From a bacterium (GTDB lineage: Bacteria > Blakebacterota > Blakebacteria > Blakebacterales > Blakebacteraceae), in contig JALGWK010000187.1 in assembly GCA_025774205.1 (NCBI GenBank), positions 1 to 8,345 of the forward strand: a stretch of DNA of 8,345 bases, read 5' to 3'. Below the pieces are notes generated by a model. It did no database searches and was not told where the DNA came from. It saw only the letters and a list, made by a program, of their open reading frames with translations. A program made the translations under genes and the position numbers. Each line of letters begins with the position of its first letter. Position 1 is the stretch's first letter. Shown piece after piece: positions 1,457 to 8,345 of this stretch.

Positions 1457-2041
1457 TCACTCTCTGCGGACGGGCATAGGCGGCAGGGTCCTGAAGAGGA
1501 GGGAGCCGGATGTCTTCTCGCCGTTGTTGAGGTTTGTGACGTGAAGCTCGAGGATATAGGTCTTCGGCTCGAGTTGACTGACATCGATCTCGAGGTAGGA
1601 AAAGAGATCGGGTCGGATGCCGCTCCGCGTGACGGTGGCTGCCACGCCGGTCGGGCGGCGGCCCCGGCCGAGGAAACTCTGTACACTGTGGAAGAGCCTC
1701 GTCGCCAGGCGACGGTTCTCCGGAGCCTCTTTTACCAGGTACTCGATCTGGTACTCGGTGGCCCCGAACTCGTCCCGGGTGAGGTTGTACACTTCATAGT
1801 AGATGAAGAGGGCCTGATCGGTCTGGATCGCCCGCCCCGGCAGCGGCAGGACCTCGAGATCGCCCCGGACGAAATCGGGCCGGCTGGTCTCGTCGGCCAG
1901 GCCGATATACGCCGCCGGGAGGATGTTACTCATCATCAGTTCATCGCCGCTGTAGTCGGGGAGTTCGACGCTCTCCTCGGCCCGGGCCCGCTTACCCGTT
2001 TCAGGGTCGAGCAGGAGGGTGGTGAGCAGGTAGTTTCCGGG
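1457..2041 (-). pseudogene. frame-displaced C-terminal part of the second GWxTD paralogue
   Basis: This 194-codon stretch continues the preceding gene in another frame. It begins with PGNYLLTTLLLDPETGKR and aligns with residues 571 onward of the intact neighbour, sharing PDYSGDEL, RGDLEVLPLPGRA, DEFGAT and the FRTLP end. This is the C-terminal beta-rich region of the family. The first ATG in this frame is at 1936 and has no Shine-Dalgarno sequence, and I find no GTG or TTG between 2041 and 1936, so independent translation is unlikely. The frame remains free of stops and closely similar to its paralogue, so the break is recent or is an assembly fault. Confidence 0.75.
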
Positions 2042-3761
2042 TGACGAAGAGGGGGATGCCCCGGATGGTGACCTGGGGGATCGTCTCCAGCCGGCGGCGT
2101 CTGTCCCCCGCCCCGGCGATCAGCTCCCAGGCCTCGTTGTAGAGATTCACCTCCACGTCGACGGTGGCATACAGCCCGGTCATGCTCCGGAACGATCCGA
2201 ACTCATCGGGCAGCAGGGCGAAGGCGTACTCCACCGCGGTCCGACCTTCCTCGCCCCTGAAGGTGATCACCGAGTCCATCGGATCGATCAGTTCGATCCG
2301 GTCCTCCTCCTCGCTGAGGGAGGGGAGCCGTTCCTCCATCTGTTCCACGACCATGCGGCTGCGCGGACCGGAGACGGTGAAGATCCCGGAGTGGGCAAAA
2401 TCCTCGAAGTTGAGATCGATCCCCTCGTCGGCGTAAACCCACCGCTCGGGAGTGGCGTACGACGCCCCCCGGAATGCCTTCCCTTCAGCGATCGCTACAG
2501 CCGCCTCCCAGACATCGGGCAGAGTATCCATGGGATTCACGGCCCTGATCGACTCGGCGGTGGCGATGATCAGCGGTTTGGGGATGTAGAGGGGATAATC
2601 CCAGTGGTCGGCGTCGAAGACACTCAACTCGAGCATCAGCGAGGGCAAGCCCATCTCCTCCTGGTGATCACGTTTCCGTTTGGTCCATGCAGGATCGCCG
2701 TCGACCATGGACCAGGCGACCGGTCGCCCCTGTCCACTCCGGTAATCGGGTTCGCCGTACCGTATATAGAGCCGGCCGCGGGCGTCGAAGGGCCAGGTGT
2801 CCTGCCCGTATTCGATCCGGGCCCAGGCGATCCTGATGTAGTGCTCGAGCAGGCGTTCGTTCACGTCGGTCTTCGGATCGGGATCCCTGCTCCGCCAGTA
2901 GTGCCCCCAGTAGGCCCGCCTGCCCTCGTTCTCAAGGGCGGCGTATTCCGCCATCTCCTCGGAGTCGAGGACCAGGCCGAGGTCGAGGTAGAGGTTCACC
3001 TCCCGCTCTCCCACGATGGCGAAGTAACGCTCGAATACCCGCATCGCCTCGTCACCGTTCCCCGCCTTCCACTGCGCCCCGGCCAGGTAGGGATAGGCAT
3101 CGAACACTTCCGGATCCCTCTCGATCAGCGCCTCGGCCGAGGTCACCGCTTCATTCCACTCCCCCATCTCCATCAGCACCTTCAGCAGTACCAGCCGCGC
3201 TTCCAGGTGCCCCGGGTTCACCAGAATCTGGTTCTCGAATTCCTGCTTCGCCTCGCGGTACTCCTCGAAATACTCATAATGGACGATACCGAGCCGGTAA
3301 CGCGCGTCGGAGTGTGAGGGATCGAGGTCGAGGACGGTGCGCAGTTCCGATCGCGCCATCCTTATGTTGTCCTGCCCGATATCCCGCTCGGCCAGACGCA
3401 TGTGGGCCAGGGCCCGCCAGTAATGAGCGGATATGTCGAGGGGAAGCGCCTCCGAGGCCCGGATGAGGTATTCGACCGCCCGACTGCCTCCGGTTCGGAC
3501 GCCGAGCAGTACCCGACCCATGCCCAGGAGCGCGCGCGGGTACTGCGGATCGCGGCGGATGACCTGTTCGAATAAGACCCTGGCTCCCTCGATGTCATCG
3601 TTGTCGAGATGAACGAAACCGGAGTCGCAGAGAGCGGCGTGCGGATCCTCCCCGCCCTGTTGCGCCGTCACCCCGGCAACCGGATTCAGGAGGAGGGTGA
3701 TCATGACCGCCGGAAGGAGGGTCAGCAGGGAAGTTTTCGATCTCGGCATGGCTAGTGACAT
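2001..3761 (-). CDS. secreted TPR/GWxTD protein, second paralogue, frameshifted
   Basis: The 586-residue product begins with a signal peptide (hydrophobic 11-25, cleavage VTA|QQ after 33). TPR-like helix pairs span about 40-250. The GWxTD-type region (about 265-345) has HYWRSRDPDPKT, NERLLEHYIR and YIRYGEPD, with the naming motif reduced to WPFD (323-326). Residues 1-573 track the intact neighbour, then a net loss of about 23 bases near 2037-2043 gives 13 foreign residues (TRKLPAHHPPARP) and a stop. Restoring the frame would give about 767 residues, ending at 1457. The start at 3761 is 16 bases after the upstream stop, with only a weak purine stretch; an ATG at 3749 is the alternative. Compared with the neighbour it carries about 29 extra residues between the RYGEPD and TPERW motifs. 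Probably exported and co-transcribed with the neighbour; molecular role unknown. Confidence 0.8.
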   Translation of the reverse strand: MSLAMPRSKTSLLTLLPAVMITLLLNPVAGVTAQQGGEDPHAALCDSGFVHLDNDDIEGARVLFEQVIRRDPQYPRALLGMGRVLLGVRTGGSRAVEYLIRASEALPLDISAHYWRALAHMRLAERDIGQDNIRMARSELRTVLDLDPSHSDARYRLGIVHYEYFEEYREAKQEFENQILVNPGHLEARLVLLKVLMEMGEWNEAVTSAEALIERDPEVFDAYPYLAGAQWKAGNGDEAMRVFERYFAIVGEREVNLYLDLGLVLDSEEMAEYAALENEGRRAYWGHYWRSRDPDPKTDVNERLLEHYIRIAWARIEYGQDTWPFDARGRLYIRYGEPDYRSGQGRPVAWSMVDGDPAWTKRKRDHQEEMGLPSLMLELSVFDADHWDYPLYIPKPLIIATAESIRAVNPMDTLPDVWEAAVAIAEGKAFRGASYATPERWVYADEGIDLNFEDFAHSGIFTVSGPRSRMVVEQMEERLPSLSEEEDRIELIDPMDSVITFRGEEGRTAVEYAFALLPDEFGSFRSMTGLYATVDVEVNLYNEAWELIAGAGDRRRRLETIPQVTIRGIPLFVTRKLPAHHPPARP

Positions 3762-3777
3762 GACACTGGGTTCTTTC

Positions 3778-6078
3778 TCATGGCTGTCGGTCCTGTTCGT
3801 TTCTGATCGGCAGGGTGCGGAAGATCAGGGAACTCGATCGGGATACGCCGGTGTGCAGGTCGGTGATCGTCAGACGCAGCTCCCAGGTCTCCGCTCTCAG
3901 ATCGCTGAGATCTATCTCGAGATAGGAAGCCATATCGGTACTGATCCCCTGGCGCGTGACGCTGCTGGCGATCCGCACCCGGCCTCTCCGCCCGGTCACG
4001 ATACTCCGGATCCCCTGGAAGAGCCGCGTCATCAGCGCCTGTCCTTCCGGAGCCTGAGAGATCGCGTATTCCACCTGGTAATCGGTAGCGCCGAACTCGT
4101 CCCTCGAGAGATTGTACGCTTCGTAATAGATGAACAGGGGCTGGTCGGCCTGCAGGGCGCGTCCCGGCAGGGGCAGCACTTCCAGGTCGCCCCGGATGAA
4201 TCTCCCCTCCCGTCCCGGCCCTACCTCGGTGATCAGGGCAGCGGGAAGGATGTTGCTCACCATCAGCTCATCACCGCTGTAGTCGGGAACCTCAATCTGT
4301 TCTTCAGATCCCGCACGCCGCCCGGTCTCCGGATCGGTCAGCATTGTGGCGAGGATGTACTCGCCGGGCTCGACCTCGAGCCTGGTCGCATCCACGAAGA
4401 GCGGGATGCCCCGGATCCTCACCTGGGGCACCACTTCGATCCGGCGGGCAGCGTCTCCGGTCGAAGTCACCTCATGCCACCCGGGAGTGAAGAGCCGGAC
4501 ATCCACGTCGAGGGTTGTCCAGGCTCCGGTCAGACTCCTGAATGATCCAAATTCCTCCGGAAGAAGCGCGAAGGCGTATTCAACGGCTGTCAATCCGTCC
4601 GAGCCCCTGAAGGTGATGGCCACGTCCATCAGATCGATATACTCGATCTTGTCCTCCTCGGGACTCATGATCGGCAGGCGCTCTTCCATCTGCTCCATGA
4701 GCTGGCGATGCAGATTACTGGTCAGCATGTACCTGCCGCGACCCACCGGGTCGTTGAAGACCATGTCGACGCCCCGGTCCCGGTAGATCCAGCGCTCGGG
4801 AGTACGCTCGACGCTGCCGACCGGTCCAGTATCCCCGCTGGCATCCTGGAATCCGGATCGGCGGCCGCCGATCCCATCACTGGCACTGATCGTATCCTGC
4901 ATGGGTGAGAGCCCCATGCTCTCGTAGAATTCCCGTTTGGCTCGCCTGAAGAAGGGATCGTCGTCAATGAAATCCTCGGGAAAGGGACGCCCCTGACCGG
5001 TCCGGATATCGGGCTCTCCATATCGGACGTAGAAGTCCCCCCGCGCGTCCCAGGGCCAATCCTCCCCGAACTCGAGCCTGGCCCAGGCCACCCGGATGAA
5101 GTGCTCCAGCAGACGCTCGTTCACCAGCGTCTTCGGGTCGGGATCCCGCTGGGCCCAGTAGTGGTTCCGGTAGGAGATCCGCCCCTCGTCATCGAGGGTC
5201 CTGTATTCCCGCTGCTCATCAGGTGTGAGGATGTAGCCGATGTTGAGATAGAGTCCCAGTTCGTCCGCGTCCAGGATCCCGAAGTAGTTCTCGAAAACCC
5301 GCATGGCCTCGTCGAACCGCTCCTCCTGCCAGAACGCACCGGCCAGGAGCGGATAGGCTTCCGTCGCCTCCGGATCGAGAGTGATCAGTTCCCCGGCAGC
5401 GCGGGCGGCGTCATCCCACTCCCCCAGGGCCATATGCACGTCGAGGAGTTTCTGCCAGGCATCCCGGTGGGCCGGCACCGCCTCCACCTGATGGATGAGG
5501 AGATCACGCGCCTCTTCCGGCCGGGGCACATCGAGACGGTCGAACACGATCAGAGCGAGCTGGTAGTGGGCATCGGGATGCGAGGGATTCAGTTCGATGG
5601 CCAGGGCGAGTTCCTTCCTCGCGCTGCGCACGCCACCACGGATGGGATCCACCCGGGCGATATGCAGGAATGAGAGGGCCAGATTGTAGTGCGCCTCGGA
5701 ACTCGTGGGCATCAGCCTGACTGCCTCCTGGAAGATATTCAGGATCTCCAGCGGGGTATCCTCTTCCAGTTCGAGGGCGATCCGTCCGAGACCGAGCACC
5801 GCCCGGAAGTAATTGTCGCTCACTGCCAGCGCCTGCTCGAACAGAGCGCGGGCGCTGTCCAGTTCGCCCCGATCCAGGTGCGCCATCCCCGAATCTGCGA
5901 GGGCCGCCGCCCGGGCCATCTCCTGCTGCGCCCGGACCGGCAGAGGGCCGGAACAGACCAGGAGGAGACCGGTCAGCAGCGCCAGCACTGAACCTGAAAG
6001 GGAACGTGCCGAACGGATGCCGGTCGTCGGGATATACCTCCGCCCCGAATCAGATATGCCGCAGAATGTCATGGTCAT
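3778..6078 (-). CDS. secreted TPR and GWxTD-domain protein, intact copy
   Basis: The 766-residue protein has a signal peptide with a long N-region (hydrophobic 31-43, probable cleavage VRA|QQ after 50). TPR-like helical repeats follow from about 55 to 265, the clearest around 61-85, 128-166 and 240-262. The GWxTD-type domain (about 280-360) shows ILTPDEQREY, NHYWAQRDPDPKT, NERLLEHFIRVAWARLEFG and FYVRYGEPD; the signature itself has become DWPWD (340-344). After a variable linker comes ERWIYRDRGVDMVFND with GRGRYML, also typical of the family, then a beta-rich C-terminal half. I infer a periplasmic or surface scaffold; the family's biochemistry is not established. No strong Shine-Dalgarno precedes 6078. 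An in-frame GGAGG near codon 14 has no ATG, GTG or TTG at a usable distance, so I keep this start. It lies 72 bases after the serpin's original stop. Confidence 0.85.
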   Translation of the reverse strand: MTMTFCGISDSGRRYIPTTGIRSARSLSGSVLALLTGLLLVCSGPLPVRAQQEMARAAALADSGMAHLDRGELDSARALFEQALAVSDNYFRAVLGLGRIALELEEDTPLEILNIFQEAVRLMPTSSEAHYNLALSFLHIARVDPIRGGVRSARKELALAIELNPSHPDAHYQLALIVFDRLDVPRPEEARDLLIHQVEAVPAHRDAWQKLLDVHMALGEWDDAARAAGELITLDPEATEAYPLLAGAFWQEERFDEAMRVFENYFGILDADELGLYLNIGYILTPDEQREYRTLDDEGRISYRNHYWAQRDPDPKTLVNERLLEHFIRVAWARLEFGEDWPWDARGDFYVRYGEPDIRTGQGRPFPEDFIDDDPFFRRAKREFYESMGLSPMQDTISASDGIGGRRSGFQDASGDTGPVGSVERTPERWIYRDRGVDMVFNDPVGRGRYMLTSNLHRQLMEQMEERLPIMSPEEDKIEYIDLMDVAITFRGSDGLTAVEYAFALLPEEFGSFRSLTGAWTTLDVDVRLFTPGWHEVTSTGDAARRIEVVPQVRIRGIPLFVDATRLEVEPGEYILATMLTDPETGRRAGSEEQIEVPDYSGDELMVSNILPAALITEVGPGREGRFIRGDLEVLPLPGRALQADQPLFIYYEAYNLSRDEFGATDYQVEYAISQAPEGQALMTRLFQGIRSIVTGRRGRVRIASSVTRQGISTDMASYLEIDLSDLRAETWELRLTITDLHTGVSRSSSLIFRTLPIRNEQDRQP

Positions 6079-6150: not shown

Positions 6151-6261
6151 TCATTTCACCCGCGCCAGGAGTTCAGCGTTCGCCACCCAGAGCAGGAAAT
6201 ACGGCTGCTCGGCCCCCTCCTCGATCATCGCCAGCAGGAAGGGCCGATCGAAGATGTAGCT
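6151..6261 (-). pseudogene. displaced C-terminal tail of the serpin-like gene
   Basis: In the frame that would be restored by removing one 44-bp repeat copy, this stretch encodes 36 residues beginning SYIFDRPFLLAMIEE, continuing through GAEQPYFLLWVANAELL, and ending ARVK at a TGA (6153-6151). This is the expected serpin C-terminus: the RPFL strand, then the last beta strand corresponding to LFMGKVVNP in alpha-1-antitrypsin. Its first 14 codons duplicate the sequence already read in the main frame in the second repeat copy. The final 22 residues occur nowhere in the translated product. No start codon context supports separate expression. Confidence 0.8.
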
Positions 6262-6306
6262 CCCTCGATCATCGCCAGCAGGAAGGGCCGATCGAAGATG
6301 TAGCTC
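6219..6306. repeat. perfect 44-bp tandem duplication
   Basis: Copies at 6219-6262 and 6263-6306 are identical and directly adjacent. Each begins cctcgatcatc and ends gatgtagctc. Because 44 is not a multiple of three, the second copy shifts the serpin-like gene out of frame close to its end. Identity without a single difference points to a recent event, a reversible slippage site, or an assembly artefact. Confidence 0.95.
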
Positions 6307-7319
6307 TTTGGCGGACTGGAAGGGGCCATTCCTATCGTGGCACTCGATTCCAGTACCGCCCCCCGTTCCGAGAGCTGGAACCGGATGTTCTGGAGGGCTT
6401 CCTGGATCTCGTACTCATCTTCGTCCCACGGTTCATTCAGGACCCGGGCGTACATCAACTCCCCGTACCTGTGGGTCAGATCGAAATTGATCTTGGGAAC
6501 CTTGAAATCGACCCCGGTCGTGAGTGTGTGATCGGAGTACTCCTCATCAACCACCAATACCCGCTCCCAGGTTTCCTGCAGGGTCGCACCGGGTGCGACC
6601 ATCGCCAGGATCAGGTGGTCCCGATCCGATTTCGTGGTGATCTCCACGACCGGTCCCGTGTCAGGACCGCTGTAATCGAAGCCCCTGACGATCACCTGGC
6701 CCAGCATGTCGGCGGCTTTGCTGCCCTTCTCATCATCTTCGACCCCGAAGGCATGGACCTTCTGGTTTGCGTCGCCATTGAAACGGAGGGGACGTTCGAT
6801 GGTCGTGAAGACGTGTTCGAAGTCGAGCCGTTTCAGGAGGTAGGCGTAGGAGATGACCGCCAGCGTATCCTGGACGTCGAACTGCGGTGACGGGGCAGCG
6901 TCCCCGAATGTCTGGAAGAGAGCCTCCCGGATCCTTCCCTCGATGAAGTTGCCGACGAAATCGGCCAGCGCGACATAGGACATCGGGTCCAGATATCCGG
7001 CCTCGAAGAGACGCTCGTTGAGCCCCTCGGCAGTCGCCATGGTCAATTCTGTAGCCTGCACGCCTCCCAGCTCGATCGGCTCCCCCATGACCGAGTCGAT
7101 CAGAGTGTTCCAGGCCAGAGCGAAGGTGGCACAGTAGACCTGATTTATTTCCGGATCGATTGTCGCCAGTGTATGAGCATTGAACCTGGTGGTGACGAGT
7201 TCGCTGGAGGCTGCCGTGAGGAGCGGTGGCGGACCGGGATCTTCCCGTTTGTGACGGAAAATGTCACATGATGCTGCTCCGCAGAGAACCGCGAGCAGCA
7301 GAAGCAGTCTGAACTTCAT
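6225..7319 (-). CDS. serpin-like lipoprotein, C-terminus lost by duplication
   Basis: The 364-residue product has a hydrophobic leader and lipobox AASC with Cys18 followed by Asp. Similarity to serpins is clearest in the second half: VISYAYLLKRLDFEHVF (155-171) resembles the strand-3A region, HLILAMVAPGATLQE (235-249) the strand before helix H, and VPKINFD (274-280) the LPKF strand. A reactive-loop segment runs from ERG (318-320) to FDRPFL (342-347), with the same spacing as alpha-1-antitrypsin, which would place P1-P1' at Ser334-Ser335. The P12-P9 hinge reads LESS rather than small residues, so inhibition is uncertain. The N-terminal third is divergent. The 44-bp duplication replaces the last 22 residues with 12 unrelated ones; the restored length is 374, normal for serpins. 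GGTGAGG precedes the start by 8 bases. It is first in the minus-strand cluster. Confidence 0.7.
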   Translation of the reverse strand: MKFRLLLLLAVLCGAASCDIFRHKREDPGPPPLLTAASSELVTTRFNAHTLATIDPEINQVYCATFALAWNTLIDSVMGEPIELGGVQATELTMATAEGLNERLFEAGYLDPMSYVALADFVGNFIEGRIREALFQTFGDAAPSPQFDVQDTLAVISYAYLLKRLDFEHVFTTIERPLRFNGDANQKVHAFGVEDDEKGSKAADMLGQVIVRGFDYSGPDTGPVVEITTKSDRDHLILAMVAPGATLQETWERVLVVDEEYSDHTLTTGVDFKVPKINFDLTHRYGELMYARVLNEPWDEDEYEIQEALQNIRFQLSERGAVLESSATIGMAPSSPPKSYIFDRPFLLAMIEGATSSIGPSCWR

Positions 7320-7491: not shown

Positions 7492-8345
7492 ATGCAGCTC
7501 AACTTCCTCGATACCATCGCCTTCATCGCCTTCATCGCCCTCGTGATCGGGGTCTCGCTCTACGCTTCCCGCAAGGAAGACACCTCGGAGGACTATTTCC
7601 TCGCGGGGAGAGGTCTGACCTGGTGGCTGGTCGGGTTCTCCCTCATCGCCTCCAATATATCATCCGAGCACTTCGTCGGTCAGGCGGGGAAAGGATTCGG
7701 CAGCGCCGGACTGGCCGTGGCCAGCTACGAGTGGATCGCGGCCATCACACTGGTGTTCGTGGCCATCTGGTTCCTGCCGCGATTCCTCCGCAGCGGGATC
7801 TACACCATCCCCGAGTTCCTGGAGTACCGTTACAACGCCACCGCCCGGGCCATCATGGCGGTCTTCATGATGGTAGCCTACGTGGTCGTGGCGATGGCCA
7901 CCGTACTCTACTCGGGAGCGATCGCCCTCAAGGCGATCTTCGGGATCAATGTCCTGCTCGGCATCTGGCTGATCGGACTGCTGGCGGGCGCCTACACCAT
8001 ATACGGCGGACTGAAAGCGGTGGTCTGGTCCGACCTGATCCAGGGCATCGCCCTCCTGATGGGAGGAGTGCTCGTCACCTGGCTGGGGTTGAGGGCCGTG
8101 GGAGGGGTTGCACCGTTCCTGTCGACCAATGCCGACAAACTCCACATGATCCTGCCGGCCAATCATGTCGATTACCCCTGGACCATTCTCCTGGTGGGCA
8201 TCTGGGTACCCAATCTCTTCTACTGGGGTCTGAACCAGTTCATCACCCAGCGGACCCTCGGCTCGAAGAGCCTCGCTGAAGGACAGCGCGGGATCCTCTT
8301 CGCGGCGATGTTCAAACTGCTGATCCCCTTCATCATCATCATGCC
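7492..8345 (+). CDS. Na+/sugar symporter of the SGLT branch, 3' end outside window
   Basis: The frame is open from the ATG at 7492 to the right edge: 284 residues, roughly the first half of a transporter of about 500-600. GGAGG ends 5 bases before the start. Hydrophobic segments lie at about 5-24, 44-62, 72-95, 120-148, 152-172, 180-200, 229-247 and 267-284. Solute:sodium symporter landmarks are SLIASNISSEHFVGQAG (50-66), ASYEW (77-81), YTIPEFLEYRYN (104-115), YTIYGGLKAVVWSDLIQ (168-184) and YWGLNQFITQRTL (244-256). The region 50-115 strongly recalls Vibrio vSGLT as I remember it, with Glu80 at the sugar-binding glutamate and His60 where vSGLT has Gln and human SGLT1 has His. It should import a sugar or similar solute with Na+ across the inner membrane. 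It is divergent from the serpin-like gene. Confidence 0.92.
   Translation, partial: MQLNFLDTIAFIAFIALVIGVSLYASRKEDTSEDYFLAGRGLTWWLVGFSLIASNISSEHFVGQAGKGFGSAGLAVASYEWIAAITLVFVAIWFLPRFLRSGIYTIPEFLEYRYNATARAIMAVFMMVAYVVVAMATVLYSGAIALKAIFGINVLLGIWLIGLLAGAYTIYGGLKAVVWSDLIQGIALLMGGVLVTWLGLRAVGGVAPFLSTNADKLHMILPANHVDYPWTILLVGIWVPNLFYWGLNQFITQRTLGSKSLAEGQRGILFAAMFKLLIPFIIIM

Follow-up and report, generated by a model that had tools for sequence, protein, structure and literature searches.

Does the exact tandem duplication in the last part of a serpin-like gene belong to the organism, or did it arise when the draft genome was assembled? The original prediction had offered three readings: an on/off switch worked by gain and loss of the repeat, a fresh null mutation, or an assembly error. 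The window, that is the whole stretch of DNA that was analysed, is 8,345 nt long and is identical to contig C479 of a draft of 527 contigs with a completeness of 85.9% and a contamination of 4.8%. It contains two adjacent 44-bp copies (6219-6262 and 6263-6306) that are letter-for-letter identical. The period-44 match spans exactly 6219-6306 and does not extend on either side, which leaves zero microhomology at the junction. This is the top tandem array of the window (Tandem Repeats Finder score 176; next best 50), and the observed match far exceeds what chance would produce. In the two-copy state the minus-strand open reading frame 7319-6225 encodes 364 amino acids, the last 12 of which are out of frame (GATSSIGPSCWR); read with one copy, it encodes 374 amino acids with the C-terminus ...FDRPFLLAMIEEGAEQPYFLLWVANAELLARVK. 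The perfect adjacent repeat and its effect on the protein, both predicted at the outset, are thus borne out, the former by direct comparison and the period-44 match and the latter by translation. RNA-family and tRNA searches of the whole window gave no matches. The features of the locus are:

6225-7319, minus strand: assembled open reading frame of the serpin-like lipoprotein, whose 364 aa end in 12 foreign residues; scores under the Pfam Serpin cut-off and belongs to a homologue family with a predicted serpin fold
6263-6306, minus strand: 44-bp copy that comes first in the direction of the gene and encodes SYIFDRPFLLAMIE; identical to 6219-6262
6219-6262, minus strand: second 44-bp copy in the direction of the gene, on the side of its 3' end; identical to 6263-6306
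6157-6218, minus strand: out-of-frame remainder that codes for the conserved C-terminal strand GAEQPYFLLWVANAELLARVK, which is kept in homologues

The C-termini of homologues bear on which of the two frames is the original one. Among the distinct homologues, 21 have a readable end; they come from several phyla, and every one keeps the one-copy C-terminus, in the pattern PYFxxWVxNxEL or a close variant (PYFALW, PYFILG, PYFAMW and similar, then xNxEL). In the one-copy reading a [FL]D[KR]P[FY] motif precedes the conserved strand, and the same holds for each homologue whose end can be read; the two-copy product lacks the strand. None of the 21 has a duplication or repeat at the corresponding place. 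Since all readable ends are of the one-copy type, the one-copy frame is, as judged from this conservation, the real one and the two-copy frame the aberrant one. This agrees with the earlier suggestion that the duplication breaks the last serpin strand. A second genome of the species was looked for and not found. G001, which belongs to the same genus and is 82% complete, has ordinary serpins but no detected copy of the serpin-like lipoprotein gene, and the same is true of two genomes of the same family; therefore, no close relative could show a one-copy locus.

Is the gene product a serpin at all? The protein starts with a lipoprotein-like signal, LCGAASC, as seen in the sequence. Its match to Pfam Serpin (PF00079) covers about 60 residues near the end and reaches 19 bits as assembled and 20.5 bits in the one-copy reading, at a cut-off of 27; of ten homologues, one passes that cut-off (L190, 27.5 bits). 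A sequence search of the PDB gave a match to PAI-1 over residues 265-355. Searches with the single sequence found no homologue among 60 relatives and none in a first GTDB scan. Three clear homologues came from a search of 386 genomes, and their alignment then found 18 GTDB loci, among them loci from Pelobacter, Geotalea, a Clostridium, Pirellulales, Melainabacteria, Saprospiraceae and candidate phyla; other genomes hold further members of the family beyond these 18. The family loci are:

L189-L206, L172-L174, L208 and L210: predicted serpin-fold family; lipoprotein-like signals occur in many members, most score under the Pfam Serpin cut-off, and the hinge differs from that of inhibitory serpins

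The fold was addressed with the full-length Pelobacter member (L189), which is 30% identical to the window protein. An AlphaFold2 model of this protein, built from 18 sequences, had a mean pLDDT of 79. With this model the matches listed by Foldseek were serpins (best E 9.6e-11), and VIA-align matched residues 64-386 to serpins with a best Z of 18.2 over 280 residues at 4.5 A. Both structure comparisons show a serpin fold for the family, which is a widespread and divergent one that is mostly missed by Pfam. In its predicted fold and its conserved C-terminal strand L189 is like PAI-1, corticosteroid-binding globulin, antithrombin and conserpin, but the family differs from the solved serpins in that identity is only about 10-16% and Pfam scores are mostly below the cut-off. 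The model of the assembled window protein itself (four sequences) had a pLDDT of 38 and was set aside as unusable, so that a serpin fold for the window protein follows by homology; on this footing, the description of the gene as serpin-like is supported. Whether the family inhibits proteases is another matter. Inhibitory serpins carry small residues (Ala, Gly, Ser) at hinge positions P12-P9. In the alignment, most family members read A-x-[LV]-[KE]-[SN]-x-A after the invariant hinge glycine, and this G-A-x-[LV]-[KE]-[SN] stretch does not match the small-residue run of inhibitory serpins. Protease inhibition by the family is therefore doubtful, as far as the alignment tells. The homologue from G269 is present as two overlapping frames (L172, 1432-2052 and 2043-2789, minus strand) and is split elsewhere than the window gene, around query residue 165.

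The origin of the second copy is best seen from the rest of the draft. In 527 kb, about a sixth of the 3.09-Mb draft, we looked for exact tandem duplications that stand isolated, have two copies and are at least 16 bp long; there were 15, with periods of 17-71 bp, which corresponds to 28.5 per Mb. A 93-bp match in L063 was not counted, since with a spacing of 104 bp its copies do not adjoin. Three single-contig control genomes had 4 in 800 kb, or 5 per Mb; these controls are unrelated organisms, and one of them, G049, is rich in short repeats and a weak control, whereas the cleanest, G014, had 1 in 400 kb. The draft differs from the single-contig controls with P about 6e-4 in a conditional test that was chosen after the first cases had been seen. 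A draft from the same genus had 2 exact duplications in 201 kb. Junction microhomology was 0 in nine of the 15 duplications, 1 bp in five and 2 bp in one, which is about the chance level for blunt concatenation. More microhomology at the junction would be expected from slippage between short direct repeats. The period is a multiple of three in only two of the 15. For seven of them a contig end is 222-374 bp away (P about 4e-4 for a position within 400 bp, again a test chosen after the first cases had been seen); the duplication at 6219-6306 has its nearest contig end at a distance of about 2 kb and is thus outside the 220-375 bp band of these seven.

Conserved genes are among those that such duplications interrupt. 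The gene yidC is split by an exact 47-bp duplication (L088 1947-2040, contig C515). The first half of the periplasmic domain lies on one fragment; the rest of this domain lies on the other, along with the 60-kDa insertase domain. Whole-genome searches of the draft found no second YidC periplasmic domain and no second insertase domain of the family. YidC is essential in E. coli (PMC3587592), and a living cell whose only yidC is broken is implausible. For this reason, the class of duplications, that at 6219-6306 included, is best read as error. Similarly, a nuoF-type gene is split by an exact 71-bp duplication (L101 9310-9452, contig C414); the nuoF-type domain is also present in several other genes of the draft. 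An aminotransferase gene is split by a 61-bp duplication and a TonB receptor gene by one of 28 bp.

Because the draft has many similar exact duplications, one of them inside the only yidC detected, the second 44-bp copy is very probably an assembly artefact and not a real feature of the organism. We infer a failed overlap merge as the cause: two contig pieces that shared a 44-bp overlap inside the serpin-like gene would have been joined end to end, and the overlap, left unmerged, would then be present twice in the contig. The gene of the organism would most likely have one copy and encode an intact 374-aa serpin-fold lipoprotein. Local assembly errors in which scaffolding leaves duplicate sequence despite overlapping flanks have been described (Chen et al. 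2020, PMC7111523), and such uncorrected local errors in metagenome-assembled genomes put wrong protein-coding sequences into databases (PMC7111523). The locus resembles these scaffold-join errors in that the overlapping flanks would be unmerged and the overlap appears twice, but differs from them in that Ns lie between the copies there, whereas the copies at 6219-6306 touch and have no Ns between them. The literature on short tandem duplications in bacteria and on sequence duplicated in scaffolds yielded little else. Of the three readings offered at the outset, the draft-wide duplications and the split yidC thus favour the assembly error; the null mutation and the switch found no support.

Alternatively, a recent and real tandem duplication in the sampled strain may have inactivated the gene and left a fresh null allele or an early pseudogene. 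This is unlikely. Copies that are 100% identical are indeed expected of a recent event, but the junction of the 44-bp copies has zero microhomology; and local gene decay could explain why a GWxTD/TPR gene nearby on the same contig is frameshifted too, but the decay of one gene leaves unexplained the equivalent duplications in conserved genes across the draft, among them the only detected yidC.

The third possibility, that a serpin-fold lipoprotein is toggled on and off in the population as one 44-bp unit is gained and lost, is highly improbable: although a change by one unit would switch the frame, 44 being no multiple of three, and although an exact 44-bp direct repeat would be prone to collapse by slippage or recombination, there are two copies only, zero microhomology at their junction, a repeat at the same place in no homologue, no recombinase identified among the genes of the window, and equivalent duplications in genes that no cell would switch, such as yidC. 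Known contingency loci are usually arrays of many short units. They share with this locus a unit in the coding frame that is not a multiple of three, but here there are two 44-bp copies and no sign of copy-number variation in the sequences compared. There is thus no positive evidence for a repeat-driven switch. Were the duplication real and variable, it would make a phase-variable bacterial serpin.

If the second copy is an assembly artefact, as we favour, the locus is a caution that draft metagenome assemblies can contain exact two-copy duplications which mimic a null allele or a switch. Even when no reads are at hand, the likely artefact is exposed by a draft-wide count of duplications and a look at whether essential genes are split.

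The frameshifted GWxTD/TPR gene of the window lies at 1457-3761 on the minus strand, is split near 2043 and adjoins an intact paralogue (3778-6078). Around the break it lacks about 23 bp relative to this neighbour. Either gene decay or another assembly error would explain its frameshift. A further GWxTD paralogue, on contig C206 (L054, about 7068-9263), has its most conserved stretch (7798-8028) in another frame than the flanking parts, which suggests two compensating indels.
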